IMG/VR virus record: IMGVR_UViG_3300018476_000196
Span: 1 to 28,331 of that record
From: a virus
DNA: 28,331 bases
Strand: one strand, 5' to 3'
Part shown: piece by piece, positions 544-23,083 of the stretch
How positions within the stretch are numbered: position 1 is the first letter of the stretch
Layout of the letters: each line of letters opens with the position of its first letter
Program-made: the position numbers and the translations under genes
Notes under the pieces: model-generated
Told to the model about the DNA's origin: nothing
The model's input: the letters and a program-made list of their open reading frames with translations, nothing else
Databases searched by the model: none

Positions 544-2418
544 ATGCAGAAGGACCACGTTCCGATTACAGTCGACAGCTTCCGGGGCACGTTTGACCGG
601 GGCGAGGATGATGTCTGTCCGGGTGACCACTTCCTCGACTCGTTGAACGTCGTCTACACGGAGCATGGAGTCGAGACTCGGAAGGGGTCCATCGAGCACT
701 TTCCTCTCGCTGGCATTCGAAGGATAGCATCCTACAAGAGGATTGGTGAGGCGGATCGGTTGCTCATTCTGGATAGCGCTGGAAGCATCTGGGATTCAAC
801 CAGTCTCGCATCACCAATCCTCACTATCGTTGGGATGACTGATTTCGGCATGGTGTCGCTTTACAATCGTGCCTACATCACTCCACACAACAGCAACAAG
901 GGATTGCCTGGCCAGAAAGTCTACGTCTATGAGGGGTCGGGCACTGCACGTCCAGCAGCAGGAGTTGCACCTATCGGTCCTCCGATGGTCGTTGCTACCT
1001 CAGCGACTGCTGGAAGCATTGAGATTGGAAAGCATCTCTTTGCAGTAGCCTACGAGACCATCTCGGGATATCTTACACAGCCCGGACCAGCGACGTTTAC
1101 TCTCTACGATGCGCCCGGAGCTAAGAAGGCCAACATCAGTAACATCCCGATTGGCCCTGCCGGCACTGTCGCGCGCGTCCTCATGGCAACGAAGAAGCTC
1201 GCAACCACCTACGCAGGTGATGCTAAGAATCAGGAGTTCTTCTCTATCCCGAACGGACGCATCGGAGACAACAGCACGACGGTCTTGACTGTCGACTTCT
1301 TCGATGCTGACCTTCAGGCCGGTGTTGACTACCTACTCGACCAGATGACCGAGATTCCCGCAGGCGTGGGCATTGGAGTCTACAAGAGTCGCCTCGCCGT
1401 GTGGGGAACAGACACCAACGAATCTGCGGTCTACTTCTCCGAGCCAGGACAACCCGAATCGTTCTCGGCAACAGAGGGATTCGTTCTTGCGTTTCCTGGA
1501 GATGCCTCCGGAGGAGTGAAGAACTGCGTGGAGTTCCGCTCCCAATACTATCTACTCAAGGGTGGCGGTAAGACTTACGTCACCAACGAAATCGCAGACT
1601 CTCCGGCCTTCTGGGAGGTCACGAACGTCGACCTGAGCATCGGAGCAGAGTGCCACTCGGTGGCCAAGGTGATGGACCAGAATGGTGCGGCGCTGGACAA
1701 CTTCTTCTCGGCCGACAGGTCTGGACTCTACCTCTTCAATGGGACGTTCAGCAACAATGAACTCTCCAGAAAAATCTCAGACATCTGGCGTCGGGTCACG
1801 CGTCTTGCGCTTAATCAAGTCGAGATTGTTTATGACCCGATTAAGGCACTTATCTATTGTGCTGTTCCTATCGACGGCGCTGATACTCCTACTCACCTTC
1901 TTGTGGGCGATGTAGACGATGGTATCGACCCAGACAACATTCGCTGGACCATGTGGAAGTTCCCGAAGAATCCTACAAGTATTGTCGTTGACCTGAACTC
2001 CCTGACCAAGCGGACACAGTTCCGTTTCGGGTCGAGGCAGGATAACGTCTACGGTTACGACGAGAGTGCGCTGGATGACTTCGGAACGGCAATCGAGAGC
2101 TTCGTTGAGAGTGCTCTCTTGCCTCCCGATGCGCCTGAAGCTGACCCTGTCATCTATCAGTTTGGTCATTTGCAGCTTCGGGCGAAAGGCAACGGGGCAC
2201 TCAACATCACCATCTCAGGGATTGATCGGGCGCGCTCCTTGCAGCCAGCCGGTATCGCTCTCACAGCACAGCCCGGTCGAACTCTGGAACGCATGCTGAA
2301 CTTCCAAGACGAGCGTGCATCGGTGAAGCTCCAAACGCATGGCTTCACTGACCACTTCCAACTCACAAGGTTCAAGCTCTACGCCACCTTGCTTTGGACT
2401 GGCCGTGTGAACGTCTAA
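544..2418 (+). CDS. Tail nozzle-like or stabilisation-type virion protein, 624 residues
   Basis: The N-terminal region follows the pattern seen in podovirus tail nozzle and stabilisation proteins: a Phe-Arg-Gly start, a Pro-Gly-Asp region, then a Leu-Asn-Val-Val segment and an Arg-Lys-Gly-Ser turn at about residues 12-50. The rest is rich in short beta strands and Gly/Asp turns, as in beta-propeller tail proteins. Such proteins attach below the tail adaptor and close or extend the tail tube. The stop codon overlaps the next start as TAATG at 2416-2420. The start has only a weak purine-rich site upstream, so translation may depend on coupling to the gene ending at 542. The family assignment is by pattern, not by search; a general virion protein is the fallback. 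Confidence 0.65.
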   Translation: MQKDHVPITVDSFRGTFDRGEDDVCPGDHFLDSLNVVYTEHGVETRKGSIEHFPLAGIRRIASYKRIGEADRLLILDSAGSIWDSTSLASPILTIVGMTDFGMVSLYNRAYITPHNSNKGLPGQKVYVYEGSGTARPAAGVAPIGPPMVVATSATAGSIEIGKHLFAVAYETISGYLTQPGPATFTLYDAPGAKKANISNIPIGPAGTVARVLMATKKLATTYAGDAKNQEFFSIPNGRIGDNSTTVLTVDFFDADLQAGVDYLLDQMTEIPAGVGIGVYKSRLAVWGTDTNESAVYFSEPGQPESFSATEGFVLAFPGDASGGVKNCVEFRSQYYLLKGGGKTYVTNEIADSPAFWEVTNVDLSIGAECHSVAKVMDQNGAALDNFFSADRSGLYLFNGTFSNNELSRKISDIWRRVTRLALNQVEIVYDPIKALIYCAVPIDGADTPTHLLVGDVDDGIDPDNIRWTMWKFPKNPTSIVVDLNSLTKRTQFRFGSRQDNVYGYDESALDDFGTAIESFVESALLPPDAPEADPVIYQFGHLQLRAKGNGALNITISGIDRARSLQPAGIALTAQPGRTLERMLNFQDERASVKLQTHGFTDHFQLTRFKLYATLLWTGRVNV

Positions 2419-3911
2419 TGGCTGTCACACGAATCACCACGTTCGCCTCGCTGGTTGAAGGATACCAGCATACTGATCCAAAGCTGTATCAGATATTGCA
2501 GGCGTTCGTCCAAAGCATTGGTGAGCTGCAAGCGGAAGTTACACCGCTCACCCGTATCATCACGGACACTGAGGGGACGATTGGTGCTATTCCGACATCG
2601 CCAACGTCCATCGGTTACGAGATTCTTCAGAAGGCAATTCTCAGGATTTATTGGTCCGGTGCTACCAACGCCGCGTCATACGAGGTTCGTAAGGGAACGG
2701 TCTGGGATACTGCGTTTTTCGTCGCTGCTACTCCCCAAACGGAAGTTCGACTTGATCCGATTCTGGTGGGTAATCATACGTATCTGGTCAGGTCTCGAAA
2801 TGGACTGGGAGCTTACTCGACGGCCTATCTGGCAGTCCTCGTAACGATTCCGTCTATTCCGGCACCGATGATCAACGCACAGGTCATCGACAACAACGTC
2901 CTCCTGCGCTACTCTCGACCGAATTCGACATGGAGAATCAATCACTATGACGTCTTCCGAAACAACGTCACGATTGGTTCTATCGCGGGTGAGTTCTTCG
3001 TGTGGTTTGAGGCAGCAGCAGGGACGTTCACGTATGGTGTTGAGGCTGTTGACATTGCCGGGAACCGGAGTCCAAGAGCATCGGTTAGCGTCGACGTCAG
3101 ACAGCCTCCCGACTTCGAGCTGGAGGATATACGTCATTCGCTTCTTGCTGGTTATCGTGTTAACGCTCTAATCTATGGTGAGCCTGCACTTGGTTGGGAC
3201 TATACCGATGCGCAAGGTTGGGCGACCACGGACTACGTTTGGTTCGCTGGCAACACTGGTAAGCTCCTTGTCTGTGTGGACGAGGACGACACATGGTCCA
3301 CGCACTTCACTGAGGACGGCTGGGACCAGCCATCAGACCAGACGACTGCTGGCTTTCCAATCTACATCCAGCCCGGTGCTCTGACTGCACTCTATCGGGA
3401 GACCATTGATTACGGAGGCGTCTTCAGTAACGTCATCATGAACGTGAGCTGGCTACTTCAGCAGCTGACGAATCTGGGAATAGTCAGTGTGGTGCTATCT
3501 GTAGAAACTTCTATAGACGGCGTTACGTGGTTACCTCCCATTAACGGCGCATCGATTTTCGTTGAGAGCTTCCGATATGCCCGACTGACTTTCAACTTTA
3601 CGTCGAGTAATACGAAAGCTCTAGCAATATTTTCTGATCTGACGATATCCCTCGATGTCAAGAAAGAGCTTGATTCGGGATTTGTGACAGCCTTGGCAGC
3701 CGACGTGGGCGGAACTCAGGTCGTATTCAACAAGGACTTCAAAGACGTCGACTCGATAACGGTGTCTCCGACAAAGAGTCCAGAACCGCTCAATGCTATC
3801 TACGAGTTCATAGACGTGCCGAATCCGACAGAGTTCAAGGTGCTCGTCTACGATAGCATTGGGACACGAGTCAACTGTGTCTGTAGCTGGAAAGCTCGAG
3901 GAATAGTCTAA
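2418..3911 (+). CDS. Tail protein with fibronectin type III-like domains, 497 residues
   Basis: I chose the ATG at 2418, which shares one base with the upstream TAA (TAATG); an upstream in-frame start at 2394 would intrude into the previous gene. After a helical N-terminal 50 residues there are two Ig/fibronectin-like beta-sandwich stretches, roughly residues 65-145 and 150-235. They are recognisable by Trp/Tyr core positions and Tyr-x-Val-Arg strand patterns, such as ASYEVRKG and YLVRSRNG. The C-terminal half is beta-rich and includes a segment resembling a carbohydrate-binding jelly roll. Fibronectin-like domains are widespread in tail tip and fibre proteins and aid weak carbohydrate binding. 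The next gene is again coupled by TAATG at 3909-3913. Exact position in the tail is unknown. Confidence 0.75.
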   Translation: MAVTRITTFASLVEGYQHTDPKLYQILQAFVQSIGELQAEVTPLTRIITDTEGTIGAIPTSPTSIGYEILQKAILRIYWSGATNAASYEVRKGTVWDTAFFVAATPQTEVRLDPILVGNHTYLVRSRNGLGAYSTAYLAVLVTIPSIPAPMINAQVIDNNVLLRYSRPNSTWRINHYDVFRNNVTIGSIAGEFFVWFEAAAGTFTYGVEAVDIAGNRSPRASVSVDVRQPPDFELEDIRHSLLAGYRVNALIYGEPALGWDYTDAQGWATTDYVWFAGNTGKLLVCVDEDDTWSTHFTEDGWDQPSDQTTAGFPIYIQPGALTALYRETIDYGGVFSNVIMNVSWLLQQLTNLGIVSVVLSVETSIDGVTWLPPINGASIFVESFRYARLTFNFTSSNTKALAIFSDLTISLDVKKELDSGFVTALAADVGGTQVVFNKDFKDVDSITVSPTKSPEPLNAIYEFIDVPNPTEFKVLVYDSIGTRVNCVCSWKARGIV

Positions 3912-5304: not shown

Positions 5305-5514
5305 ATGCCGCTGAACGTTGACGTAAGCCAGGCCCTCATGTTGTTGGGCCTCAGGACTTTGGAGCTTGAGCAACTCCGCAACCAGTGCGAACTGGTATCC
5401 ACTGAGTTCAACAGATTGCAGGAAGAAAACCAGATTCTCAAGAGTCGAGTTGCAGAGCTTGAGATTAGACTGGAGCCGGGACTGAGGGAGGTTGCGAGGT
5501 CAATCAATGGCTAA
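5305..5514 (+). CDS. Small coiled-coil protein, 69 residues
   Basis: An AGGAGTCTCCG ribosome site precedes the ATG. From about residue 14 the protein follows a leucine heptad pattern (LRTLELEQLRNQ, then RLQEENQILKSRVAELEIRL) and is predicted to be a continuous parallel coiled coil, so it is likely oligomeric. Its last 8 bases overlap the next gene's start (ATGGCTAA at 5507-5514). Short coiled-coil proteins in this position may act as fibre assembly factors, or as trimerisation elements or collar components, but nothing here decides between them. Confidence 0.7.
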   Translation: MPLNVDVSQALMLLGLRTLELEQLRNQCELVSTEFNRLQEENQILKSRVAELEIRLEPGLREVARSING

Positions 5515-5971
5515 CTGGGCACTGCCGACAATATCGAGTCTCTATACCGACTTCGTTGCGGAGGTCGACGCACGCCTCAACGACTCGGCTCAGATGTTCT
5601 CGGGCGGGCCAACCAATCAACCTATTGGTTCCATCCGATATCAACGCTCGACGAATCTGCTTCAGGAGTGGGACGGAGCGCAGTGGGTTAACAAAGTCAT
5701 CTCGGTAGCTGGTGGTGGAACAGGAGCGACTACGCCTGGCGGAATCGTAGCGAGCCTGAATCTCGGGACGATGTCTGCTCAGAACTCCAATGCAGTTAAC
5801 ATCACTGGCGGCTCTCTCACAGGCATCACTGGTCTGAGTCTGATTGGTGACCTGACATTCGTAGCGGACAATGCCAGCAAGATCGGAACGAACGCGAATC
5901 GAGCATCAACAATCTACGTTCGGTCGGGCCTCGTCATTCCTGTTGGCGCTGATAAGTTCGTATCGAGCTAA
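5507..5971 (+). CDS. Tail fibre/collar-type protein, 154 residues
   Basis: The start was set at ATG 5507 because GAGGT lies 6 bases upstream; a TTG at 5492 is in frame but has no better ribosome site. The centre has the segment VAGGGTGATTPGG, then LGTMSAQNSNAVNITGG and LTGITGLSLIGD. This Gly-Gly-Thr-Gly-Ala plus Ala-Gln-Asn-x-Asn-Ala-Val-x-Ile-Thr-Gly-Gly pattern is a well-known signature of tail fibre shaft proteins of many tailed phages. The protein is short for a fibre and probably forms a small trimeric shaft or tip. The TAA overlaps the next ATG (TAATG at 5969-5973), so it is translationally linked to the HxD-repeat protein. Confidence 0.75.
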   Translation: MANWALPTISSLYTDFVAEVDARLNDSAQMFSGGPTNQPIGSIRYQRSTNLLQEWDGAQWVNKVISVAGGGTGATTPGGIVASLNLGTMSAQNSNAVNITGGSLTGITGLSLIGDLTFVADNASKIGTNANRASTIYVRSGLVIPVGADKFVSS

Positions 5972-6864
5972 TGGCTAAAGTCCCAGGTAGCCTTTGGATA
6001 GAATCTCAGTATCTCCATTTCGTTGCCGCAGATGGCAGTGAGTGGAGGTATTGGGGAACTGCTGTAGGAGCATCTTCTGCATTGGCAGGTTCTCTCTGGG
6101 TTGAGGACGACTACTTATATTACGTCGATGGGACTGGTAACGAACGTCGAATCCTTAATACATTCATCAAGACAACAACAGGAATCGAAGGCAGTGTTTG
6201 GGTTGATAATCAGAAGCGTCTCTCTTGGCTGGCCTCTGACCGGGGCCATCGACAAGGGCACATTGATGTGGCTCACGTGGACCACACTGATGCTACTCAT
6301 ACTGATTCGAGTCATGGTGATTTGGCGCACACAGACATTACACACTCCGACTCTGCACACACTGACCATACTGACAATACTCACAGTGATGTTGCTCATT
6401 CTGATGTGACTCATATTGACCATACGGATAACAAGCACAGCGACCTCTCGCATTTGGACACGCATACGGATGTATCTCACTCAGATAGTCATGGGGACAT
6501 AGCTCACGCAGACCTTACCACTGGTAGCATTCCGCATCAGGACCATTATGATGGTCCAGGTCATGCGGACTATCCCGGCAGTATCAATCACACCGATACG
6601 CCGCACACGGATAGCCACAGCGACGTGGCGCACTCAGACGTAGCACATTCTGACCGGGCGCATTCCGATCACACGGATAACGACCACGATGACACGGCTC
6701 ACAAGGATGTGGCTCACAACGACGTGACGCACAATGATCATAGCGATGGTCATGGTGATACACCATTCAATGACGTAGCGCACATCGACCAGGCGCACAC
6801 TGACGCAGGGCACAACGACCACGGTGACACACCGTCTCAAGCGCAACCCGAGTTTGTGGAGTAA
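5971..6864 (+). CDS. HxD-repeat protein, probable virion protein and possible radical SAM substrate, 297 residues
   Basis: Residues 6-26, 40-60 and 74-94 form three imperfect repeats with a Gly-Ser-(Leu/Val)-Trp-(Ile/Val)-(Glu/Asp) start. From residue 97 to 286 I count 39 His-x-Asp motifs. They are spaced mostly 5 residues apart, with 3-residue steps interspersed (HSDVAHSDVT, HIDHTDNK). The middle residue is usually Ser, Thr, Gly, Asn or Val. There are no Cys residues. The gene lies after tail fibre genes, is coupled to them by TAATG, and is followed by a radical SAM/SPASM enzyme that carries the same motif. Possible roles are a metal-loaded trimeric needle, a pentapeptide-type beta-helix, or a precursor of side-chain crosslinks as in His-Xaa-Ser systems. 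The structural role is inferred from context; I know no named family for it. Confidence 0.85.
   Translation: MAKVPGSLWIESQYLHFVAADGSEWRYWGTAVGASSALAGSLWVEDDYLYYVDGTGNERRILNTFIKTTTGIEGSVWVDNQKRLSWLASDRGHRQGHIDVAHVDHTDATHTDSSHGDLAHTDITHSDSAHTDHTDNTHSDVAHSDVTHIDHTDNKHSDLSHLDTHTDVSHSDSHGDIAHADLTTGSIPHQDHYDGPGHADYPGSINHTDTPHTDSHSDVAHSDVAHSDRAHSDHTDNDHDDTAHKDVAHNDVTHNDHSDGHGDTPFNDVAHIDQAHTDAGHNDHGDTPSQAQPEFVE
5986..6252 (+). repeat. Three imperfect ~21-residue coding repeats at the N-terminus of the HxD protein
   Basis: The translated repeats begin PGSLWIESQYLHF, AGSLWVEDDYLYY and EGSVWVDNQKRLS and recur every 34 residues. They end with a basic residue or pair (EWR, ERR, GHR). The DNA copies have diverged, so this is a protein-level repeat. 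They may form one subdomain for virion attachment. Confidence 0.75.
6259..6828 (+). repeat. HxD tandem coding repeat array (39 motifs)
   Basis: The repeat is conserved in protein but not in DNA: His, Asp and the middle residue use different codons from unit to unit (cac/cat, gac/gat, tca/tcg/agc/agt). This indicates selection on the His-x-Asp spacing rather than a recent DNA expansion. Typical units are HSDVA, HTDIT and HSDLS. The array pauses near residues 181-207, where Gly/Pro-containing linkers occur. Confidence 0.9.
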
Positions 6865-6868
6865 CGAC

Positions 6869-7126
6869 ATGCCAACAGAAGCTCTCGTTTACGGTATCCC
6901 GAATCTCATCGCCGACACAACAGTCAGGGCACTCCCGGCTGGCGGTGGTCGCTTGTTCGTTACAGGCGCGGCCACGTCCATCGATTTGGCGAACGACCTG
7001 GCAATGACGAGCGCGAAGAACGTCGCGGCTGCTGGCGGTGCGTTCCTTGCACCCGGCGACTTCGTGTCTGCCGGCTTCATCCGTGTCAACGGTGGCTCCG
7101 CGACGGTTCGTATCACACGGCCATGA
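6869..7126 (+). CDS. Small hypothetical virion-type protein between the HxD gene and the radical SAM gene, 85 residues
   Basis: The start was set at ATG 6869, with GGAG at 6858-6861 seven bases upstream; a farther in-frame start would overlap the HxD gene by about 40 bases. The product is rich in Gly, Ala and Val, with alternating hydrophobic residues and no Cys, consistent with a small beta-barrel or beta-sandwich. It resembles in style the 96-residue protein at 252-542. Its stop overlaps the start of the radical SAM gene as ATGA at 7123-7126. It could be a minor virion protein, or a carrier or partner for the maturase; it has no obvious peptide-recognition (PqqD-like) winged helix. Function unknown. 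Confidence 0.7.
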   Translation: MPTEALVYGIPNLIADTTVRALPAGGGRLFVTGAATSIDLANDLAMTSAKNVAAAGGAFLAPGDFVSAGFIRVNGGSATVRITRP

Positions 7127-8319
7127 GCGTAGAGCTGAATCCGTCCGGCGTCGCTTGCAATATCGGCTGCGTGTATTGCTACGAGAATCCCATGCGGGAC
7201 GCGAAGAACGTCAACGTCCCATGGAACTGGGAGAAGGTGCGCGCTGCTCTTGACAAGGAAGGAGAGTTCTCTCTGCACGGTGGAGAACCCTTTCTCGCGC
7301 CTATCAAGCGTGTCGAGCAGGCACTCAAATACGGCTTCGAACGTCACGGAAAGACTGGCGCACAGAGCAATGGGATACTCATCACGGAGGAACACATTGC
7401 TCTATTTAAGAGATATAATACGCATATCGGTATCTCATGCGACGGCCCGGAGAGATGCTCTGATGCGCGTGCGGCAGGAACGCAGGAAGAAACTCGCGCA
7501 GCAACTAAGAAGACAACGAGCATTATCGAGAGACTCCACGCCGAGGGACTCGGAGTCTCCATCATCACAACCCTCTGGAAAGGTAATTGTGATGAGGAGT
7601 CGTTTCGGATGCTCTGCGACTGGTTCCTCAGATTAGACAAGCTCGGGTTGAGGTGGGTGAACTTGCACTACTTGGAGGTTGACGGAGACAAAGCTTCTAA
7701 ACTGCGTGTCGATATGCCGCTCCTTATCGACCGAATGAAGCAGCTCATGTCCCTTGAGAGGCAGTTCACCCATCTCAAGTTTAACAACTTCAGGGAATAC
7801 AAAGCCCTGCTGCGGCGCTCGAACGAGAGCGTCAACTGCATCTGGCATGCCTGCGACGTCCTGACGACTCCTGCAGTTCAGGGTATCAACGGGCAGGGCG
7901 AGAAGACGAACTGCAATCGCACGAACAAGCAGGGAGTCGATTGGGGCAAGGCTGATGAGGGTGGTATTGAGAGGCAACACGCCCTCTACAACACGCCCTA
8001 CAAGTATGGTGGCTGCAAGGGTTGCCGCTTCTTCCTCATGTGCAAGGGCGAGTGTCCCGGCACTGGACTCGATGGTGACTTCCGCAATCGAACGGAGCAT
8101 TGCGAAGTCATCATGGCGATATTCGAGCATTACGAGAACCTGATGCTGGAACTCGGAGAAATGCCAGCGTCACTACATCCTGACCGAGAGCGGTGGGAGC
8201 GTGAGTTCTTCAACAATCCGACGCGGTCTATGTCGGCTCATGGTGACTCTCCGCATGGAGATTCACATGGTGACCACAACGATTCACGTGTGCAAGCAAT
8301 AGCAGAGGTGAGACGATAA
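7123..8319 (+). CDS. Radical SAM/SPASM enzyme, peptide maturase-like, with a C-terminal HxD tail, 398 residues
   Basis: The N-terminus has the radical SAM signature C12-x3-C16-x2-C19 (CNIGCVYC), followed by a GGEP SAM-binding motif at 53-56 and SCDGP at 105-109. The C-terminal half has a complete SPASM arrangement: C244-x14-G-x4-C264, then C298-x2-C301-x5-C307-x3-C311 and C327. This implies two auxiliary 4Fe-4S clusters. Radical SAM/SPASM enzymes typically modify peptides or proteins (PqqE, anSME, His-Xaa-Ser and cyclophane maturases). Residues 373-387 contain HGD, HGD, HGD and HND, the motif repeated in the protein encoded at 5971-6864. Translation is coupled to the previous gene by ATGA and to the next by TAATG. 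The class is certain; the substrate and reaction are inferred. Confidence 0.93.
   Translation: MSVELNPSGVACNIGCVYCYENPMRDAKNVNVPWNWEKVRAALDKEGEFSLHGGEPFLAPIKRVEQALKYGFERHGKTGAQSNGILITEEHIALFKRYNTHIGISCDGPERCSDARAAGTQEETRAATKKTTSIIERLHAEGLGVSIITTLWKGNCDEESFRMLCDWFLRLDKLGLRWVNLHYLEVDGDKASKLRVDMPLLIDRMKQLMSLERQFTHLKFNNFREYKALLRRSNESVNCIWHACDVLTTPAVQGINGQGEKTNCNRTNKQGVDWGKADEGGIERQHALYNTPYKYGGCKGCRFFLMCKGECPGTGLDGDFRNRTEHCEVIMAIFEHYENLMLELGEMPASLHPDRERWEREFFNNPTRSMSAHGDSPHGDSHGDHNDSRVQAIAEVRR
8239..8283 (+). repeat. HxD motif cluster in the C-terminal tail of the radical SAM enzyme
   Basis: Four HxD motifs occur at residues 373, 378, 382 and 385 of the enzyme, just after its SPASM domain and near its C-terminus. 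Their spacing (5, 4, 3) and middle residues (Gly, Asn) match those in the repeat protein encoded 1.4 kb upstream. Confidence 0.85.
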
Positions 8320-9653
8320 TGGAAGCGGCATCGTTCAGATTGGAAGATTTCACTCGGATGCAATGGGCACCGTCCGCTCGCTTAGTCTGGGAGCCACGCT
8401 TCCAGCAGGTTTCTCGCTCATGGCAGCAAATCGAGATTGAACTCGTGGGTGCTGGTTTCAAGGCTGGTGCATTGCTTGTCGTCCCTCCGGAACGTATGGC
8501 TGATGTATCCCGTCTGGCCAGCACCCATGGGCTTGTGGCGCTTGTGTTGAGTCAGGAAGGCAGAAATGACCTCTCCTATGCCGCCACTACCCAAGCCTTT
8601 GTCCCTGGTGGCCCGTTCAACTACCGAGTCGCCATCTGCAAAGCCAACGTCACCAACCTCTGGATTACAGCCTGGGCCAATTCCGACGACGAAGAAATCG
8701 GTGTCCTCTTGGGATATCCTGCGTGCTGTCGTCGATTCTTCAAAGATACCTGGGTGGCGAAGGGGATGATAGACACCACCTGGGAGCAGGCGCTCGGAAC
8801 CGTGGAGTCTGAACCCGGCGATGTTATCTCTGTCAAGCCTGACCCTGCTTGCAACGTTACTCTGCGTCATCTCGGCTTGCGTTGGGTGTCTCATCTGCCT
8901 TGCAGCTTCAAGTGTAGACCGACAAGAGAATACGTTGAAGGGGCCTCCAAGCTCATCAGAGCGAACTACTTCGAGCAGTATCGAACCCTTAGTGAGGCCC
9001 TACAGTGGCCTGTGAAGTGGACGGCGCTACATGGTATCGCGGAGATAGTGACACCGGTGTGCCGCATCATCTCGCGGACTGACGCGACCTATACCAAGAA
9101 TACCATCCTTCAGCAGGGCACGCTGTATCCTGACGAGGGTGCGAGAGGCAACGAGTTCCCCTTCAGGAACGCTACGAAGAAGGTCAAGTTCCTGACCAAG
9201 GATACGTGGACTCTGAATGGCTTCGGGAGCTATGAGGCCATGTGCGCGGCCCACAATCTCGTATTGGCAGCAGCCAAGGATTGTCGGGGTCAGTCAATCA
9301 TCGACCTTGGTTGCGGCACTGGTGAGCTGCTGAAGATTTACAGAGGCATCGCTGCCGAGCTGCACGGTATCGAGAACAACGACGAAGCCTATCAGAAGGC
9401 CAAAAAGATTGCCAATGTTCGCTGTATGAACATATTCGACCCTCGTGTTTTCGACAGGAAATACGATGTGGCGTTCATCTCTGTGCAACGGTTCATGGAG
9501 GCTCCGAACCGTGAGCAGTTGCTAACGCAGCTCAAGAACTGGACACGAGCGACGGTCTTCTACTCGTATGGGGAGATGGAAGGATGGAAAGCTATCGGGC
9601 AAACTCCGGACCTCCTCATCGGAGCGAACTCCGCTCAGCGAGTGGACTGGTAG
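8319..9653 (+). CDS. Fusion of a Cys-rich domain and a class I SAM-dependent methyltransferase, 444 residues
   Basis: Residues 1-240 include GYPACC at 132-137, C178 and PCSFKC at 194-199. This GYPxCC plus PCSxxC pattern is reminiscent of the uncharacterised DUF483 family, and four or more of these Cys could bind a metal. Residues 300-444 are a Rossmann-type methyltransferase with motif I DLGCGTGELL starting at 329 and an acidic end of strand 2 (HGIENND, 349-355). The gene begins at an ATG overlapping the radical SAM stop, with GAGGTGAGA upstream. Coupling to the radical SAM gene suggests it acts on the same target, perhaps adding a methyl group to the modified virion protein. An alternative is a small-molecule or nucleic-acid methyltransferase. 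The methyltransferase class is clear; the Cys-domain label is tentative. Confidence 0.8.
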   Translation: MEAASFRLEDFTRMQWAPSARLVWEPRFQQVSRSWQQIEIELVGAGFKAGALLVVPPERMADVSRLASTHGLVALVLSQEGRNDLSYAATTQAFVPGGPFNYRVAICKANVTNLWITAWANSDDEEIGVLLGYPACCRRFFKDTWVAKGMIDTTWEQALGTVESEPGDVISVKPDPACNVTLRHLGLRWVSHLPCSFKCRPTREYVEGASKLIRANYFEQYRTLSEALQWPVKWTALHGIAEIVTPVCRIISRTDATYTKNTILQQGTLYPDEGARGNEFPFRNATKKVKFLTKDTWTLNGFGSYEAMCAAHNLVLAAAKDCRGQSIIDLGCGTGELLKIYRGIAAELHGIENNDEAYQKAKKIANVRCMNIFDPRVFDRKYDVAFISVQRFMEAPNREQLLTQLKNWTRATVFYSYGEMEGWKAIGQTPDLLIGANSAQRVDW

Positions 9654-10027
9654 TCAGGCGATACATTCCTAGCGATCTGGCGAAGATTGACGAGCTGTGG
9701 CAGAAACATCACTCCGCAGCATTCTCGTTACCGAGGCTGACACCGTCGCTTATCGACTGCGTAATCGCCGACGACGAAGGCATCATAGCGTTTGGTAATC
9801 TAAAGGTCTACGCCGAGACAGTCATGGTCATGGACCACGATAGGTCGGCAAGGCTCAGAGCTAAAGCGTTCCGTGAGATAATGCCGGTGGCAATCATGGG
9901 GGCGCAACGTGCAGGGATTCATGAAATCCATGCCGTTACACAGGATCCGGATTTCGGTGTCGTCATGCGGAAACACTACGGATTCCGAGATGTTCTCGGT
10001 GAGCATCTTGTGAAGGAGGTAGAGTGA
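9584..10027 (+). CDS. GNAT-like acyltransferase, 147 residues
   Basis: From residue 22 the protein reads like a GNAT fold: an initial strand (LVVRRYIPSD), a helix, a substrate-binding strand region, a beta4 strand at about 67-80, a helix with R-x-x-x-A-K-A at about 88-95 in place of the usual acetyl-CoA loop, and a C-terminal MRKHYGFRDV segment (a typical GNAT end). The acetyl-CoA loop is divergent, so activity is not assured. The start at ATG 9584 overlaps the methyltransferase gene by 70 bases but has GGGGAG eight bases upstream; no other ATG, GTG or TTG precedes the conserved strand. Small GNAT-like proteins are common near phage structural genes. In this place it may be a third modifying enzyme in the cassette. 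Confidence 0.6.
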   Translation: MESYRANSGPPHRSELRSASGLVVRRYIPSDLAKIDELWQKHHSAAFSLPRLTPSLIDCVIADDEGIIAFGNLKVYAETVMVMDHDRSARLRAKAFREIMPVAIMGAQRAGIHEIHAVTQDPDFGVVMRKHYGFRDVLGEHLVKEVE

Positions 10028-10170
10028 TGGTCACCGTTACAATCATCCTTCTTCTCTGCGCGATCGTTTCCCTTTTGGCACACGCGATGAAGCCCAACAC
10101 GGTGCCCCTTTGGGTGTCCGTGCTGTTCGTCATTGTGGCGATGCTCATCACCGTTCTGCCGATTAAGTAG
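10027..10170 (+). CDS. Small two-helix membrane protein, 47 residues
   Basis: The ATG overlaps the GNAT stop (TGATG at 10025-10029) and an AAGGAGGT site lies just upstream at 10013-10020. The protein is almost entirely hydrophobic, with predicted membrane helices at about residues 3-20 and 26-45 separated by HAMKPNT. It ends in a single Lys. Size and topology fit a small holin or pinholin-like protein, or another inner-membrane peptide. There is no endolysin or spanin next to it, so a lysis role is only a possibility. The next gene follows after 9 bases. Confidence 0.7.
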   Translation: MVTVTIILLLCAIVSLLAHAMKPNTVPLWVSVLFVIVAMLITVLPIK

Positions 10171-10179
10171 GAGACTGAC

Positions 10180-11571
10180 ATGGGAAGCGGCGGAGCTGCA
10201 AAGAAGCAAACGAACAAGATGATTGCGGACCAGAGTGCCTGGGCGAGGAAGGGTGCCGACGCTTACAATGCGGTTGCACAGCCTCAACAGCAGCAAGCCG
10301 TAAATGCTGCAAACAACATCCAGCAGGCCGCCTTTGACAACTTCAACAGAGTTGGTCAGGGTGCTGGCTGGATCGACCCATCCATCCGCGACAAGTATCT
10401 CGCCAACCTCGGCTATGGTAGCGCTCCTGGCACTGCTGGAGGTAGCGGTGGCGGGACGGTCATGCCGAAGTATGGCAAGGTTAGTGGACTCTACAATGAG
10501 TTCGCTAGCAAGGGTGGCGGTGTCGATGCAGCCCCCATCAGAGCGGCGATGGCAGGGATGCGCTCGGTTGCTGGCGATGGTGGTTGGTCACCCGAAGCCC
10601 AAGCGAAGCAGAATGCTCTCATCGCTCAGATGGAAGAGATGGGCCGCACGGGTGGCCTTTCCGCTGAGGACATGGCTCGGATGCGTGGCGGTGGTGTCTT
10701 CGAGGAATTCCAGAAGACAGGCGGCTACACGCCTGAGCAAATCTCTGACCTTCGTGCGCGTTCCAACAGCACCCTCCCAGCCTTCTACGACCAAGTCCGA
10801 CAGGGACAGAATCGTATGGCGAGCATTCAGGGAGGCAACCCGCAAGCCTCGGCTGCAATGGGTCTCAGACTGGCTCGGGAGCAGGCGAAGGGGATGCGTG
10901 AGCAGAGTCTCGATACTGAGCTAGGCTTGAATGAGCAGATTCGAACTGGCCGTCAGTGGGGTGCTGAAGGTGGTGCTCAGGCTGAGGGTGCGCTCCAATC
11001 CCTCCGAACTGGCAACATGATTCAGGGCCAGCAAGGTGCTGCCGGCACTCGTGGCGACATGCTCAACAGCATCGCCCAGAATCGGACTGCTGCATCGTCA
11101 GGCTGGACACAGGGCGAGCTTGGCCTCGGTGGCCTCATTCAGGAAGGTCGCCAGTTCGGGACCAAAGGTCTGGAAGGCATCGCCGACAAACAGGCCGCGG
11201 CCGCTCGGGCAGGCTCAGCGTCTCGTGCGGCGTCCAACGCACAGCAGAGAGCTGGACTCCAGTGGCTTGCGAACTTCGAGGCTGGCAACACAATGGATGC
11301 TGGAGGTGGCATGACCGACCTCTATCGCTCCACGCCAGGCGAAGTCAATATGTGGAATCAAGCACTCCTTGGCAATCGCGGCATGAGCATGAATGAGCAA
11401 GGTCAGGCCGTGGACCAGAGGATGGCGAACAACCCACAGCGTGATTGGATGTCGACTGTCGGTGGCCTCGTAGGAGCCGCCGCAGGAGGCATGACCGGAC
11501 TCGGCGCGCTTGGCGTCGGAGGCGGTAAGAAGAACTACGGAGTCAATCCGGCTACCGGGAGACCATACTAA
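10180..11571 (+). CDS. Putative internal virion/DNA-ejection protein, Gly/Ala/Gln-rich, 463 residues
   Basis: A TAGGAGACTGAC site precedes the ATG. The protein starts MGSGGAAKKQTNKM and has a Gln/Ala/Asn-rich helical N-terminal region, a glycine-rich stretch near residues 85-100, and long Ala/Gln/Gly/Arg helical repeats through residue 400. A glycine-rich hydrophobic segment follows (VGGLVGAAAGGMTGLGALGVGGG, broken by polar residues at its edges). No Cys is present. This composition and the position before two more large Gly/Ala-rich genes match the internal or ejected proteins of podoviruses, which leave the capsid with the DNA and form a channel. It ends in TAATG with the next gene. Function is inferred from composition and context. 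Confidence 0.6.
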   Translation: MGSGGAAKKQTNKMIADQSAWARKGADAYNAVAQPQQQQAVNAANNIQQAAFDNFNRVGQGAGWIDPSIRDKYLANLGYGSAPGTAGGSGGGTVMPKYGKVSGLYNEFASKGGGVDAAPIRAAMAGMRSVAGDGGWSPEAQAKQNALIAQMEEMGRTGGLSAEDMARMRGGGVFEEFQKTGGYTPEQISDLRARSNSTLPAFYDQVRQGQNRMASIQGGNPQASAAMGLRLAREQAKGMREQSLDTELGLNEQIRTGRQWGAEGGAQAEGALQSLRTGNMIQGQQGAAGTRGDMLNSIAQNRTAASSGWTQGELGLGGLIQEGRQFGTKGLEGIADKQAAAARAGSASRAASNAQQRAGLQWLANFEAGNTMDAGGGMTDLYRSTPGEVNMWNQALLGNRGMSMNEQGQAVDQRMANNPQRDWMSTVGGLVGAAAGGMTGLGALGVGGGKKNYGVNPATGRPY

Positions 11572-12755
11572 TGGGCCAATACTACGAGCAAGACTCGTTC
11601 TTCCCGAAGCGTAGAAGTCGGGTAGACGAGGAAGGGTTCGGCTCGATCAACTTCGGTGCTCAGGATGACTACAGCCAGCCATCCCTGACCGACTGGCAAG
11701 GGCAAGCTGAGGCGATGGAGCCTCGTCGAGACCCAATGCAAGGCTTCATGGATAGCCTCCATGGAGCTTACGGGAAGACACCTGCGCTCGACACATATCG
11801 TAGCTACCTCAGCAACTCACCGCAGGCAGCCGACTATGCACCGGGCAAATGGGACCGTCTGGCGGCTGGTCTTGGTGGTATCGCTGCTGGACTCAGGAAT
11901 CCTGCTGAGGGAATCAAAGTCGCTCAGGGCATGAACAGGTCGAAATACGACACGGCTCTGAAGGACTACTACGCTCAGGCAGCGCCTCTCAAGGAAGCGG
12001 CTGGCATCGAGCGCGAAAGTCAGCAAGACAGGATGAAGACTCTCATCGACGCCCAAAAGCAGAGACAGGACTACCTCAACTACGCGCGCAATCTGAACAA
12101 GGACGACCAGGATTATCTCATCGCCACGGGCAAGCTCAAGGTCGACCAAGGCCAGCTCCAGCTCAACACGGACAAGTTCGGCTACGACAAATTCGATGAT
12201 ACTCGAAAGTATGGCCTTGATGCTTGGAAGGCTCAGCACGACGTCAATCAAGGTTATGGAAGACTCGGTGTCGATCGGACGAATGCCCAGACCAATCGGA
12301 TGGATACCGAGTCGAACATCGGTCGCCGGAACTTCCTGAACGAGAACGATGCTCGGACCACTTCGAAGTTGGATGTTGTCTCTGCTGGGGACATCAGCAG
12401 GGCCGAGCAGGATACTCTCAGGCTCATGAAGGGCGACTATCCAGAGGGGACAATCGTAGCTGACCCTGACAATGGCTTCTACGTGAGTTCAACTGCTGAC
12501 CCTGAGACTCGTCGAATCATCCACGAGGAAATGGCGAAGCGAGCCAACTATCGAGCCAAGACCGGCAACATCTCGTTCGACCCCGAGGCTGGCAGTCTAC
12601 AGGACTACACGCCACGCAATCAGCCGGAGCCTGACTTCAGACTCGATACCTTCAGGCCGAATCTGTATGGGCCTTCGGAATTCCAGCTGAACCCGAACCC
12701 TGCTACGGGCGGTGGACGTCGGCCGGGTAGCAAATATGGCGGGTCGAGGAGATAG
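11571..12755 (+). CDS. Putative internal virion protein, 394 residues
   Basis: The ATG shares a base with the preceding TAA. The N-terminal 110 residues are hydrophilic with a Gly/Ala-rich helix (LAAGLGGIAAGLRNPAEG). Residues 115-260 are charged, helical and Gln/Asp/Lys-rich, with a repeated pattern of Leu-Asp-Gln/Tyr-Gly-x-Asp-Lys. The C-terminus is Pro/Arg/Gly-rich and unstructured. This type of protein is seen as the second member of three-gene ejection-protein sets in podoviruses. It has no Cys and no enzyme motif. Two bases separate its stop from the next ATG, and GAGGAGATAGTC acts as the ribosome site. Confidence 0.6.
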   Translation: MGQYYEQDSFFPKRRSRVDEEGFGSINFGAQDDYSQPSLTDWQGQAEAMEPRRDPMQGFMDSLHGAYGKTPALDTYRSYLSNSPQAADYAPGKWDRLAAGLGGIAAGLRNPAEGIKVAQGMNRSKYDTALKDYYAQAAPLKEAAGIERESQQDRMKTLIDAQKQRQDYLNYARNLNKDDQDYLIATGKLKVDQGQLQLNTDKFGYDKFDDTRKYGLDAWKAQHDVNQGYGRLGVDRTNAQTNRMDTESNIGRRNFLNENDARTTSKLDVVSAGDISRAEQDTLRLMKGDYPEGTIVADPDNGFYVSSTADPETRRIIHEEMAKRANYRAKTGNISFDPEAGSLQDYTPRNQPEPDFRLDTFRPNLYGPSEFQLNPNPATGGGRRPGSKYGGSRR

Positions 12756-12757
12756 TC

Positions 12758-15700
12758 ATGCCTCAAGGACCGATCGGAAGGTATTACTGGGAGGACCACA
12801 ACACCGGCGAGTCTGGTGAGATGCCGTGGTCCGCCGACCGTGATCCCACAGACTACGAGATTGACTCCTTCAGGGCTCGAAGCTCGACTCCTGACACGAG
12901 CACTTTCGGAGGCTGGTTGAGCGACAAGCTACCGGACCCTGTCGAGCACGCATGGGAGTGGGCTAACAAGCCTATCTCCGATGCCCCGTCTCGATGGGCA
13001 CGGTCGCTACAGGACTACATCCCCAAGGAGCTTGGACTTGGTGCGGCGCGCCCTGCTGCCCAGTTCATAGGGGATACTGCATCCTCCATGACCTCACCCT
13101 TGAACCTCGCTCTAACTGCCGTGTCAGGTGGTGCGTGGGGAGCAGGACGTCTGGGCCTTGCTCGGACTGCCGGAGCACTGAGCGGCATTGAGATGGGTGC
13201 TGGTGCAGGTCAGGTTGGTCTTGGTGGCTACCATCTAAGCCAGGCCGATACCATGCCCGAGGCTGCCGGTGCTGGTCTTGAGATGCTGTTCGGTGGTCTT
13301 GGTTATGCAGGTGGCAAGGCTGGACGTGCAGCACATGCCCCTGATGTCCCAGGACCGATGCCAGACCCATTCGCTACGAAGCCAGGAGTCATTGACAATC
13401 CGGCTCGAATGCTTGGTCCCGGTGCGCGATTTGAGGGTGGTCCCGGAGGTATTGGAGAGATTGCTCCACCCCCACCTCCACCTCCTCGTCCACCGAGAGA
13501 ATCGTTTCCGACACAGCGCGGAAGTCTTGACTCAGTCGCTCCAGAAGGGACGCAATTCGGTGGCGGCGTAGTAGACCCAGCAGACCCGTATCTCGGGGCA
13601 GGACTGGGCACAGGCGAAGTGCCAAGTGGTGGAATTGAAATTGCTGGACTGGGTGATGTTGCTGCACCCGAGCTACCTCTGCAACAGCCCGTCCACCCGC
13701 GTGGGCCATCTGCACTAAGACCGTTCGAGCAGGACGCTGGTATCTGGCAGCAGATGAACGAGCCCTTGCCCGGACAAGCAGCCGACCTCGGTGCCCTTGA
13801 GCCTCCAGGACCCGTCCGACCAGCACAGGATTTCTGGCGTGAGGAGATTGGTCGACCACCCGAAATGACTCCGGGTCCGGTCGATACTCCACATCCTGCT
13901 GACCTCGCAGCGGTGACAGACGATATCGAGCTTAGCCAGCGTGGTGTCCCTGACGTCGATTCTCCTGCCCTTCAGGAAGCAACTGTTGCAGCAATGGCTG
14001 CTGAGGAGGCAGCACCTGCTCCAGCCGGCCCACGTGTCGGCCAACCGCCCGCACCTCGCACGGCTGCTGAAGCACAGGCATACGTGCAGAGTCTGGGTCA
14101 GCGACCTGAACTTCCGACTCCGATAGTCCCACCTGCACGGGATGCACTAGCTCGTGTAGCAATGGTTGCAGACCAACCGACAACTCCGAAGCCACTCGTT
14201 CGTCCAGCGAAGCCCAAGGCTCCAACACCCGACCGGATGCTGACGCTTGGTCGAGGTGTGCATGATGCCGTTAGGGTGACATTTCCCGACAAGCTTCATG
14301 CCGACCTCTTCTCTGCTTTCGGGAGGATGAAGAAGCAGATACGGGGTGAGAAAGCTATTTCCCCTGACTTCGAAGGTTTGGCTGCACGGATGGGGATGTC
14401 TGTCAAGGAAGTTTCACGCATCGCCAGTGAGTATCGTAACAAGATACTCGCGATGAAGAATGAGCTTCCTGAATACGCCCCTGAGGGTGATAACGTCCTC
14501 CACATGGAGGCTCCACACTGGGGTGGTAAGGCAGCCGAAATGGTGCCTGCTGCTCCTGCACCGCCCCCGGCTCAAGTTCCTCCGACGCCACCTCCATCTC
14601 CAGCTATCGGTCCCGGGAAATTGAGGATTCGTAGCGAGGCCACTATGGAGGGTGGCAATCGTGTATGGATTAACGATGAAGAGTTCACTAACAGATTCGG
14701 TCCCGGTGGACCAACTCAGCATGATATTCAGCGACTTCATGCACAGGCGAGAGATCCTGCATCGTTCAGGAGATTGGCCGAACTGAAGGGTGAGGAATAC
14801 ATAGACTTTGCTCCTCCCCTACAGCCAGAACTGCCGCCTCCTGCTGCGCTGAAAGCTGAACTGAAATCTCTCGGGGCCGCGCCTGAGAAGCCAAAGGTCA
14901 CGCAGACAGCAACTCGGCCCAAGAGCAAGTCGGTTCGTGTAAGCGCAATCATGGACGAGTTGGTAACTCTCGGACCGGCCGAGATGCAGGCAATCTCCAA
15001 TGACCCGGCACGTCTCCTCGCTACTGCGAAAGCTGCTGGAATCAAATCCACGACACTCAAGTCTGCTATGCAGGAGTGGTTCCAGAAGATAGGTGGTCCT
15101 GAGACTGGCGGCTTGAAGGTCGGCCCAAGCGACAAGAGAGTTGCGCAAGTAAAGGAGATGAAGTCCAACATACAGGAGTGGTTCAAGACGGCAGGTGGCT
15201 CTGAGAAGGGCGCTCTTGGCCTCCCGAGCAAGGCTCAGCTGCAAAAGGGATTTGAGAAGTCCTTCGACGTTGCTAACTCGCTACGCATGACATCACTCCT
15301 CTCTGGTCTCGCGCCAGCCAAGTCTTTCGCTGGCAACTTCGGAGCACATCTTGCTGCTGCATTGGAAGGCAGGACACTGAAGCCGCTCAAGGTTCTCGGC
15401 AACATGAAGGCCATCTCACGAGACCTCAAATCCGGGTGGCAGGCAGGTGCGAATCCAGCTCTGACTCAAGGATTCAACAAGGCCAATCTACCAGGGCGCG
15501 CGATGGGAGCGGGTGACTTCGCGGGCATCGAGTCTCTCAAGCGTGCTGGCCTCAGTGAGAAAGATGCCAAGGAACTCATGTTGACTGGCGCCAACCAGAT
15601 ATCCTCATGGTGGCCGCTGGAGACTCGGCTTGGCAAGCTCCTAGTGCCGTTCAGGACGACACCATTTAATCAGTTCGCACAGGGAATCACGAGGTGGAAG

Positions 15701-16057
15701 AAGCATCCTGATGTGGCTGCTGCTGCTATGATTCTTGGAGGGATATCAGGGGCGAATGTAGATAGCATGGAAGGTATTAGTATGATATCGGCTTTTGCTG
15801 GTCCATACGCAATACCGTTCCTGGTTGGTGCGTGGGCTGCGTCTGGCAAAGCTGAGATGCTCAACCAGATATCGCCGATGCCAGAGTGGGGTATCACCAA
15901 GACGATTACCAATCCCTTTGGAGCATTCACGGAATCTCCTGGAAAGAGATGGTTCCGTCCGGGGCTTGGCTTTGGTGCAAAAGCTGAAAAAGAGAAGAAG
16001 CGGGAGAATCTGGAGCGACGTCGAGCAAAGCGGAGGGCCGCAGCGGGTCTTGACTGA
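12758..16057 (+). CDS. Large internal virion-type protein, 1099 residues
   Basis: This is the largest gene. Residues 100-200 have Gly/Ala-rich helices (LTAVSGGAWGAGRLGLA, GAGLEMLFGGLGYAGGKAG) that could insert in a membrane. Residues 200-620 are proline-rich and probably disordered, with seven consecutive prolines near residue 240. Residues 740-830 have a helical pair repeat (MQEWFQKIGGPETGG and IQEWFKTAGGSEKGA). The C-terminal 200 residues hold a Pro-Phe-Arg-Thr-Thr-Pro-Phe-Asn-x-Phe segment followed by a hydrophobic region and a strongly basic end. The P-F-x-x-T-P-x-N-like segment is also seen in large phage internal or polyvalent proteins. It ends the plus-strand operon 17 bases before a convergent gene. 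I see no transglycosylase catalytic motif. DNA ejection is inferred. Confidence 0.65.
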   Translation: MPQGPIGRYYWEDHNTGESGEMPWSADRDPTDYEIDSFRARSSTPDTSTFGGWLSDKLPDPVEHAWEWANKPISDAPSRWARSLQDYIPKELGLGAARPAAQFIGDTASSMTSPLNLALTAVSGGAWGAGRLGLARTAGALSGIEMGAGAGQVGLGGYHLSQADTMPEAAGAGLEMLFGGLGYAGGKAGRAAHAPDVPGPMPDPFATKPGVIDNPARMLGPGARFEGGPGGIGEIAPPPPPPPRPPRESFPTQRGSLDSVAPEGTQFGGGVVDPADPYLGAGLGTGEVPSGGIEIAGLGDVAAPELPLQQPVHPRGPSALRPFEQDAGIWQQMNEPLPGQAADLGALEPPGPVRPAQDFWREEIGRPPEMTPGPVDTPHPADLAAVTDDIELSQRGVPDVDSPALQEATVAAMAAEEAAPAPAGPRVGQPPAPRTAAEAQAYVQSLGQRPELPTPIVPPARDALARVAMVADQPTTPKPLVRPAKPKAPTPDRMLTLGRGVHDAVRVTFPDKLHADLFSAFGRMKKQIRGEKAISPDFEGLAARMGMSVKEVSRIASEYRNKILAMKNELPEYAPEGDNVLHMEAPHWGGKAAEMVPAAPAPPPAQVPPTPPPSPAIGPGKLRIRSEATMEGGNRVWINDEEFTNRFGPGGPTQHDIQRLHAQARDPASFRRLAELKGEEYIDFAPPLQPELPPPAALKAELKSLGAAPEKPKVTQTATRPKSKSVRVSAIMDELVTLGPAEMQAISNDPARLLATAKAAGIKSTTLKSAMQEWFQKIGGPETGGLKVGPSDKRVAQVKEMKSNIQEWFKTAGGSEKGALGLPSKAQLQKGFEKSFDVANSLRMTSLLSGLAPAKSFAGNFGAHLAAALEGRTLKPLKVLGNMKAISRDLKSGWQAGANPALTQGFNKANLPGRAMGAGDFAGIESLKRAGLSEKDAKELMLTGANQISSWWPLETRLGKLLVPFRTTPFNQFAQGITRWKKHPDVAAAAMILGGISGANVDSMEGISMISAFAGPYAIPFLVGAWAASGKAEMLNQISPMPEWGITKTITNPFGAFTESPGKRWFRPGLGFGAKAEKEKKRENLERRRAKRRAAAGLD

Positions 16058-17490: not shown

Positions 17491-17794
17491 GACGACGCCA
17501 CCTGTGCTTTCTGCTTGCGTCCTGCATGTTATCGCTTTGGGTGCCCTCAAACAGATGTGTTTCTTCCACGCAAGCTGGATTGTCACACTTATGCAAAGCT
17601 AGATGCTGTAATGGCCTCCCCAGTTTCCGTTCCAAGATGACTCGACTTACCCTCAGAAACTTGCCTTCGACTCTGAGGTAAGCATATCCGCGTCCGCTCC
17701 GACCGGGCCAAATGAGACATCCGGCCTCATTCCTCTTACACCGGCCTAGCCATAGCTTGAGTTTGTCCTCAAGCAGTCTTGGCTTGTAGGCCAC
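17471..17794 (-). CDS. HNH endonuclease, 107 residues
   Basis: The GTG start at 17794 has a perfect AGGAGG six bases upstream. Residues 19-30 hold a Cys pair and the CLIWPG strand, and residues 66-93 carry the nuclease core ALHKCDNPACVEETHLFEGT followed by QSDNMQD. This includes His68, Cys70, Cys75, His80 and Asn88, the zinc-supported beta-beta-alpha-metal fold of HNH enzymes of the homing type. The gene overlaps the polymerase gene by 26 bases and the downstream ATPase gene by 20 bases. Such free-standing HNH genes beside phage polymerase genes are often selfish elements that spread by cutting related genomes. A host-directed or packaging role cannot be excluded but is less likely for this subtype. 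Confidence 0.88.
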   Translation of the reverse strand: MAYKPRLLEDKLKLWLGRCKRNEAGCLIWPGRSGRGYAYLRVEGKFLRVSRVILERKLGRPLQHLALHKCDNPACVEETHLFEGTQSDNMQDASRKHRWRRRAESLA

Positions 17795-20297: not shown

Positions 20298-21028
20298 TTC
20301 AGTTGATGGACTGAGGGGCCATGTGGTGGAGTTGCTTCTCCAGCAGCCGCTTGCGCTCGGCCAAGTCTCTCAGCTCGACTCGGAGTCTCTCCGTCATGCT
20401 CAGATAGTGGGCGAACTTCTCCGAGCTGTATTCGAGCACCAGCGTCTTCGCCTCGATTTTCATCTTCACCTGGCGCAGTTCCGACTCGACCCTCTGGCCC
20501 CGATACTCCTCCGACTGTTCGATATGCATCTTGAATGTCCTGTTCTGCTTTCCTCATGACCTTGCTGACGATGTCGAGTGCCTTGATGAGTTCGTCTTCC
20601 TCATGGTCCTCGATGATGATTGTGTCTTTCCCGTGAATGAACAGCGAATCCTGCAGAGTGCCCCACACGACAATCTGAAGGCCCAGCTCCATCGCTATCC
20701 CGAGCTCAACCCACTTCCCTGTGGAGAGCTTGGACAGATGGTAGCTGTTGACCAGGAGGAACACGTCGGCGCGGCAAATGTCCGTCCTGTCCAAGTTGAT
20801 GAAGAAGTCGTGACCCTTCTCTTTCAAGAGGTCATCTTCTTCGCCCTGACGAATCCACGTTGCCGTGTTTTCGAAGGGAACCTTCAGCTGTATCCGCTCG
20901 ACCAACTCCGCGATATCGTGGCGGTATTGGTATGACCCGGCGACGTATACCTTCATTTTGGGTTTGCCTCCCTGTTGTGGTCCGCCTTGACGGTCCCACT
21001 GTCGTTGAAGTTCTTCTTTCAGCGTCAC
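20294..21028 (-). CDS. Nucleoside 2-deoxyribosyltransferase-like protein with an overprinted C-terminal extension, 244 residues
   Basis: The core, starting at MKVYVAGSY (ATG 20956), has the nucleoside 2-deoxyribosyltransferase layout: a VYVAGSY strand, a Trp near residue 34, LDRTDICRADVFLLV at about 55-69, and GKWVELGIAMELG (residues 80-92) with the probable catalytic Glu. The family is usually about 140-150 residues, and the recognisable part ends near residue 143. The remaining 78 residues lie in the same DNA as a coiled-coil gene in another frame and look like non-selected translation. I give the GTG at 21028, which overlaps the previous stop as GTGA and has AAGGAGAAGG upstream; ATG 20956 with GGAGG ten bases upstream is an alternative. 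Likely roles are base exchange or hydrolysis of nucleotides. Confidence 0.72.
   Translation of the reverse strand: MTLKEELQRQWDRQGGPQQGGKPKMKVYVAGSYQYRHDIAELVERIQLKVPFENTATWIRQGEEDDLLKEKGHDFFINLDRTDICRADVFLLVNSYHLSKLSTGKWVELGIAMELGLQIVVWGTLQDSLFIHGKDTIIIEDHEEDELIKALDIVSKVMRKAEQDIQDAYRTVGGVSGPEGRVGTAPGEDENRGEDAGARIQLGEVRPLSEHDGETPSRAERLGRAQAAAGEATPPHGPSVHQLK
20299..20529 (-). CDS. Coiled-coil protein overprinted inside the deoxyribosyltransferase-like gene, 76 residues
   Basis: The ATG at 20529 has AGGA about 8 bases upstream, and the TGA at 20299 is one base before the polymerase ATG, so the gene fits the operon spacing well. The protein has heptads of hydrophobic residues with many Glu, Arg and Lys (RVESELRQVKMKIEAK, then RLRVELRDLAERKRLLEKQL) and is probably a dimeric or trimeric coiled coil. 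Its codons strongly prefer G or C at the third position, as in the neighbouring genes. The overlapping frame of the upstream gene does not, which argues that this is the selected frame. Function unknown; a polymerase accessory role is only suggested by position. Confidence 0.68.
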   Translation of the reverse strand: MHIEQSEEYRGQRVESELRQVKMKIEAKTLVLEYSSEKFAHYLSMTERLRVELRDLAERKRLLEKQLHHMAPQSIN

Positions 21029-23042: not shown

Positions 23043-23061
23043 GTCTGTCTCTCCTATGCTC

Positions 23062-23071: not shown

Positions 23072-23083
23072 ATCCCACACTTT

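Follow-up and report, generated by a model that had tools for sequence, protein, structure and literature searches.

Why would a phage set a protein made largely of His-Xaa-Asp (HxD) repeats close to a radical S-adenosylmethionine (SAM) enzyme with a SPASM domain, in the neighbourhood of its tail genes? The question is raised by positions 5971-10027 of a virus contig of 28,331 bases (IMG/VR record IMGVR_UViG_3300018476_000196, analysed over its whole length and here called the window). Five tightly coupled genes were verified there from the sequence and, as an earlier reading made from the letters alone (the sequence-only reading) had described, neighbours are joined by TAATG/ATGA overlaps or 4-nt gaps; the overlap of the last gene is 70 nt. 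It is probable, in our judgement, that the locus is a phage protein-maturation cassette in which the SPASM enzyme, together with a DUF483 protein, would put crosslinks on HxD arrays of the phage's own tail-region proteins.

The HxD array and its motif code

The proposed substrate is a protein of 297 residues (5971..6864, + strand) with a beta module of about 100 residues (GSLWVE..YVD..G.EW, three times) and a C-terminal array of 197 residues with 38 HxD (6271..6838, +). The count of 39 HxD motifs in the whole protein, given already by the sequence-only reading, was confirmed, and it compares with a mean of 6.6 and a maximum of 15 in 5000 residue shuffles of the same protein. All 38 His of the array sit in HxD, and one in-register variant is FND (PFNDVAHID).

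In a pool of 85 array proteins, Asp stands two residues after 85% of the His (Asn after another 10%), 39% of the Tyr, 33% of the Trp and 25% of the Phe, compared with 2-9% for each of the other residues (Phe, Tyr and Trp versus the others, p~1e-205). Elsewhere in these proteins the values are 8-12% for the aromatics and 6-8% for the aliphatics and Ala tested. Where the arrays keep a strict five-residue register, Tyr or Phe accounts for 20 of the 22 His replacements, Phe being two base changes away; none of the 22 is Asn, Asp, Leu, Pro, Arg or Gln, the one-step neighbours of His besides Tyr. Asp is replaced mainly by Asn and Glu, and His, also counted at that position, may come from overlaps of two registers. 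Because of this pattern of replacement, the motif can be read as requiring an aromatic ring at position i and Asp or Asn at i+2, with the limit that in bacterial C-terminal regions the preference for Asp at +2 holds for His only.

Such a code, with His, Tyr, Trp and Phe enriched at -2 of Asp, matches the aromatic-x-X3 substrate logic (X3 being a residue such as Asn or Asp) of SPASM enzymes that form three-residue cyclophanes (3-CyFEs), and is unlike that of a metal site. Known 3-CyFEs join His C2 to the Cbeta of Ala or Arg, Tyr C3 to the Cbeta of Asp, Trp to the Cbeta of Asn or Asp, and Phe to the Cbeta of Asn or Ser, and the enzyme ScaB accepts the change of His to Tyr (PMC11002830). A cyclophane had been guessed at in the sequence-only reading, and the aromatic-x-Asp code agrees with that guess better than a bare HxD repeat does.

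Co-occurrence of enzyme, array and DUF483

The radical SAM and HxD genes were found to co-occur in other phages, as the sequence-only reading would predict, whichever of the two was taken as the starting point. The enzyme-first set, drawn from IMG/VR plus three Thermus phages, held 55 non-redundant loci, and a repetitive candidate substrate gene accompanied the SPASM enzyme in 51 of them, as an open reading frame (ORF) with at least 8 HxD that in 38 cases lay no more than 100 bp upstream on the same strand. Among the other four (loci are labelled L), L172 is cut, L156 closely matches phiLo (88% identity), which has distal arrays, and L181 and L212 show no array.

The array-first scan was blind to the enzyme. 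Many of its raw matches were microsatellite or wrong-frame artefacts (HADWRHSD, TAHTDTAHTD, HRHSD), which were separated from irregular arrays by pentad diversity and kept as low-complexity or wrong-frame controls. The enzyme was present in the same locus for 31 of the 40 irregular arrays versus 1 of the 80 controls (p=1.6e-19), and the single control with an enzyme, L056, is itself a 45-HxD array just short of the diversity threshold. The nine irregular arrays without the enzyme include L011 and L105, where it lies just beyond the fetched stretch, L087, where it is elsewhere in the record, L099, with a truncated enzyme at the end of the locus, L091, which is cut at the contig end, and L103, an artefact. 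We also picked ten relatives of the window, recognised by their DNA polymerase or tail gene, since alignment of the N-terminal module was too divergent to supply controls without an array; four had both enzyme and array and six, mostly fragments, had neither. Of 69 non-redundant loci, 65 have DUF483 after the enzyme, and radical SAM and DUF483 are fused in L136, L140 and L142.

The radical SAM/SPASM enzyme and its own HxD tail

The proposed HxD maturase is a protein of 398 residues (7123..8319, +) with a radical SAM domain (Pfam PF04055, E=1.9e-12). The expectation that all SPASM cysteines are present was borne out: the full set for three clusters, two of them auxiliary, consists of CxxxCxxC (C12/C16/C19) and the SPASM elements C..GxxxxC, CxxCxxxxxCxxxC and C (C239/C244/G259/C264, C298-x2-C301-x5-C307-x3-C311 and C327), and these positions are invariant in 29-31 diverse homologues. 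The nearest folds to the structure model of the enzyme are those of the anaerobic sulfatase-maturating enzyme (anSME; 4k36-4k39, TM 0.61-0.69) and of ChlB, a maturase of ribosomally synthesised and post-translationally modified peptides (RiPPs).

The anSME shares the fold and Cys pattern and differs in oxidising one sulfatase Ser or Cys; membership of that family was rejected, as the sulfatase maturase model TIGR03942 scored 68.5 bits against a cut-off of 349 and no sulfatase occurs among the window ORFs examined. The best NCBIfam score was that of DynA (70), and none of the cyclophane-maturase models passed (AmcB 65.9 vs 425, YhhB 46 vs 445, GrrM 45 vs 310, FxsB 28.5 vs 370). A His-Xaa-Ser (Hxs) system likewise combines a His-x-polar repeat protein with radical SAM enzymes, but its repeats have Ser where these have Asp, and here a single, phage-borne maturase was found; with HxsB at 22.8 bits vs a cut-off of 370, this assignment was also rejected.

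The C-terminus of the enzyme is an HxD array of its own (residues ~373-387, SAHGDSPHGDSHGDHND; 8239..8283, +), which is predicted to be disordered and had been overlooked in the sequence-only reading. At least two HxD were counted in 64 of the 86 enzyme tails examined, with a narrower set of motifs than in the arrays (HGDxPHGD.HGDH[TW]D). The tail is found in most phage homologues and absent from most bacterial ones, yet the latter still adjoin HxD-rich proteins. It is probably a built-in substrate, a pseudo-substrate or a docking element.

DUF483 and the fused methyltransferase

The gene at 8319..9653 (+) had been read as a fusion of a Cys-domain and a methyltransferase. The methyltransferase half (residues ~300-444) stands as class I (PF13649, 1.2e-6), and the Cys-domain (residues 1-~290) is better described as DUF483-like: its Pfam DUF483 score of 19.9 bits is under the 25-bit cut-off, and the homologue in phage Cumys is annotated DUF483. 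The domain has invariant Cys at 136/137, 195 and 199 and a conserved His238-Gly239. A fold search with the confident model of this half returned methyltransferases as its top 50 PDB matches, all with low query TM, and no fold was assigned. Fold neighbours of the methyltransferase half include the RiPP methyltransferases of plantazolicin and cypemycin, although the match is generic. Because the Cumys, phiMa and phiLo proteins have no methyltransferase half, we regard this half as an optional fusion, and the core of the system would be the HxD substrate, the radical SAM enzyme and DUF483.

The module in Thermus phages

Among the 50,697 phage records of INPHARED, close homologues of the enzyme were found only in the Thermus phages Cumys, phiMa and phiLo (43-44% identical), and a query with the Cumys array matched in these three only. 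In Cumys and phiMa the enzyme gene is preceded by one for an unannotated HxD protein (54 motifs in Cumys, 53 in phiMa) and followed by one for DUF483; the Cumys trio consists of Cumys_13 (54 HxD), Cumys_12 (radical SAM with an HxD tail) and Cumys_11 (DUF483). PhiLo has two HxD proteins, for which 90 and 72 HxD were counted in the stretch retrieved; they lie a few kb from the enzyme and on the opposite strand (phiLo_136 and phiLo_137, annotated hypothetical; L234:3574-7368, corresponding to phiLo 143573-147367). Queries with the phiLo array proteins matched only the array part of the Cumys and phiMa proteins in other phages.

The trio has been published as the 'rSAM module' of Cumys and phiMa, in a paper that suggests DNA modification as its function and notes that some cyanobacteria have homologues close to deazapurine genes (Kolesnik et al. 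2024, PMC11437467). Histidine is nowhere mentioned in the text of that paper and the repeats are unreported there. The window has a homologous trio of radical SAM, DUF483 and HxD-array protein, its enzyme being 43-45% identical to those of Cumys and phiMa, and additionally the methyltransferase fusion and two small genes. The statement of the sequence-only reading that no phage system of this kind had been described was thus nearly right: the trio was in print, without its repeats and under another guess at its function. Our literature search found no paper on phage HxD repeats or on radical-SAM maturation of tails.

Proposed modification and its alternatives

It is very probable, from the sequence evidence, that the enzyme acts on the HxD arrays. 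The SPASM enzyme with DUF483 would act repeatedly on the aromatic-x-Asp/Asn motifs, mostly His-x-Asp, of a C-terminal array in a tail-region protein of the same operon. A 5'-deoxyadenosyl radical would remove a hydrogen from the Cbeta of Asp, the carbon radical would attack the imidazole (or the phenol, phenyl or indole) two residues earlier, and the auxiliary clusters would accept the electron. The product at each motif would be a three-residue cyclophane, with two hydrogens lost (-2.016 Da), and a tail protein could carry about 12-90 ring crosslinks. By analogy with known enzymes, we consider this cyclophane chemistry to be reasonably probable. TvgB is a known case of a SPASM enzyme that modifies numerous repeats of a single chain; it differs in cyclopropanating Val in the TVGG peptide repeats of TvgA (PMC9062424). 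DUF483, with its invariant Cys pair and further Cys, may be a substrate handler or a co-factor protein, and the fused methyltransferase, where present, may decorate the product. With dozens of rings, a disordered, His- and Asp-rich tail would become a distal tail element that is stiff, resists proteases or is chemically changed in some other way; the benefit to the phage (stiffness, resistance to proteases or heat, receptor contact) is a guess.

Several points weigh against this proposal. The literature search found no His-x-Asp crosslink, and the best family scores mix cyclophane formers with a sulfatase maturase, none of them over its cut-off, so that homology leaves the chemistry unfixed. 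Three array-bearing fragments related to L087 (L030, L059, L081) have no enzyme in 36-78 kb, and the enzyme loci L181 and L212 and the bacterial loci L145 and L146 have no array. In addition, related sequences were taken as independent in the counts after de-duplication; the p-values of the motif code likewise ignore shared ancestry, but the arrays were de-duplicated and the effect is large.

The enzyme could instead modify the arrays by other SPASM chemistry, such as oxidation or desaturation, epimerisation, or a His N-Cbeta or ether link. We regard this as unlikely, though the nearest solved structures include the Ser/Cys-oxidising anSME besides ChlB, dynobactin-type enzymes also make C-N links (PMC11002830), and DynA has the top NCBIfam score. 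Against it, the motif needs no Ser or Cys, and any aromatic can replace His, even Phe with neither ring nitrogen nor hydroxyl, with Asp or Asn at i+2, which C-C cyclophanes would fit best. Both His and Asp bind metals well, the arrays are on tail-region proteins, and HxH iron sites occur in fibre tips; the arrays might thus be unmodified metal-binding or structural repeats of a tail fibre while the enzyme works on something else. The near-obligate adjacency of arrays to the enzyme and the replacement of His by Phe, Trp or Tyr instead of Cys, Glu or Asp make this very unlikely.

It is also conceivable that the HxD segments are docking tags, the enzyme tail and the array binding each other or DUF483, and that what the enzyme really modifies is a small molecule or a different protein. 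This would suit the conservation of a narrow motif set in the tails of the phage enzymes, but a tag would need neither dozens of copies nor an aromatic-x-Asp/Asn code, and nearly all bacterial homologues keep their neighbouring HxD proteins without having the tail; we find it highly unlikely. As for the published suggestion of DNA modification, which draws on the cyanobacterial deazapurine neighbourhoods (PMC11437467), the third conserved gene encodes an HxD-array protein whose motif recurs on the enzyme, and the enzyme belongs to a fold family of peptide- and protein-modifying SPASM enzymes, which makes this reading extremely unlikely.

The proposed crosslinking would have its closest relatives in the triceptide or 3-CyFE systems (XncB, OscB, MscB, YxdB, HaaB, YhhB), with which it shares a SPASM radical SAM enzyme and an aromatic-x-(Asp/Asn/...) code. 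Their substrates are RiPP precursor peptides; the present system differs in that the arrays are long and form the C-terminal part of tail-region proteins, DUF483 is a partner and the enzyme itself bears the motif. If correct, the proposal would carry radical-SAM crosslinking beyond small peptides, to the long arrays of phage tail proteins; it would point to a function for DUF483, mean that phages remodel the proteins with which they contact the host, and put right the published guess. Stable protein materials built on cyclophanes would be available from the arrays as well, together with an enzyme that serves many sites. A more far-reaching statement, on which we are evenly divided, is that phages and some bacteria build a polycyclophane virion material, an undescribed system in which a self-tagged SPASM enzyme and a near-obligate DUF483 put tens of tandem His(Tyr/Phe/Trp)-x-Asp cyclophanes on distal domains of tail proteins. 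The system is already open to testing, since all three phages, Cumys, phiMa and phiLo, can be grown on Thermus thermophilus HB8.

Array carriers and the bacterial branch

The arrays are mostly C-terminal and sit on N-termini unrelated to each other, including the beta module of the window, large tail-region proteins and a protein with tail-fibre matches (L021); L055 has its array within a J-like tail fibre (phrog_31, E=2.7e-47). Array proteins are about 130-1480 residues long with other N-terminal domains, rather than short leader-bearing precursors. A movable segment that recurs at the C-terminus of many different carriers is what one would expect of a modified display element, and a role of the array proteins in the virion or tail is likely as far as their sequences tell. 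The array protein of L192 (625 residues, 9744-11618), which is 3' of the enzyme, mixes HxD with many HTxTP/YxHTP units. A collagen-like family of 368 residues has a looser terminal HxD array away from the radical SAM gene (L087:629-1732, L059, L030, L081), and in the L087 record about 51 kb separate the collagen-like gene from the enzyme and from a second array (L147).

In bacterial loci (Aquimarina, Mucilaginibacter, Owenweeksia and others) the enzyme adjoins proteins of about 900-1040 residues, and in six of these proteins Asp is at +2 from 68 of 100 His in the C-terminal 190 residues. Among 201 genomes sampled from the Aquimarina genome's family, only the Aquimarina genome itself has the enzyme. 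A non-phage branch, mostly from Bacteroidota (L133, L137-L139, L141, L143, L144), has a protein of about 900 residues with an HxD-rich C-terminus, the radical SAM enzyme and DUF483; in L138 a P-loop protein of 489 residues follows.

Genomic context of the window

The placement of the cassette in a tail and internal-virion operon, as given in the sequence-only reading, held for the tail part: a tail and host-specificity protein lies at 2418-3908 (+; phrog_1727, E=2.4e-12; gene 2418..3911), and the internal-virion-protein match at 12758-16054 is weak. Directly 5' of the HxD gene is a tail-fibre-like protein of 155 residues (5504..5971, +), which keeps the same place in related phages. Within the cassette, the gene at 6869..7126 (+) encodes a protein of 85 residues that is limited to the closest relatives of the window (55-58% identity). 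The last gene (9584..10027, +; 147 residues) lost its GNAT-like label, as no Pfam, NCBIfam or PHROGs model matches; relatives with 32-80% identity lie downstream in about 20 loci, and the gene is optional.

On the other strand, the window encodes a family A DNA polymerase with an N-terminal uracil-DNA glycosylase domain (17769-20297; Pfam DNA_pol_A 3e-37, UDG 4e-26), a nucleoside 2-deoxyribosyltransferase-like protein with a score under the Pfam cut-off (20294-21136) and a DNA methyltransferase fused to a ParB-like domain (21025-22320). A protein with a PEP-CTERM sorting signal (22377-23078, - strand; Pfam PF07589, E=1.9e-6) is unusual cargo for a phage and hints at the type of host.

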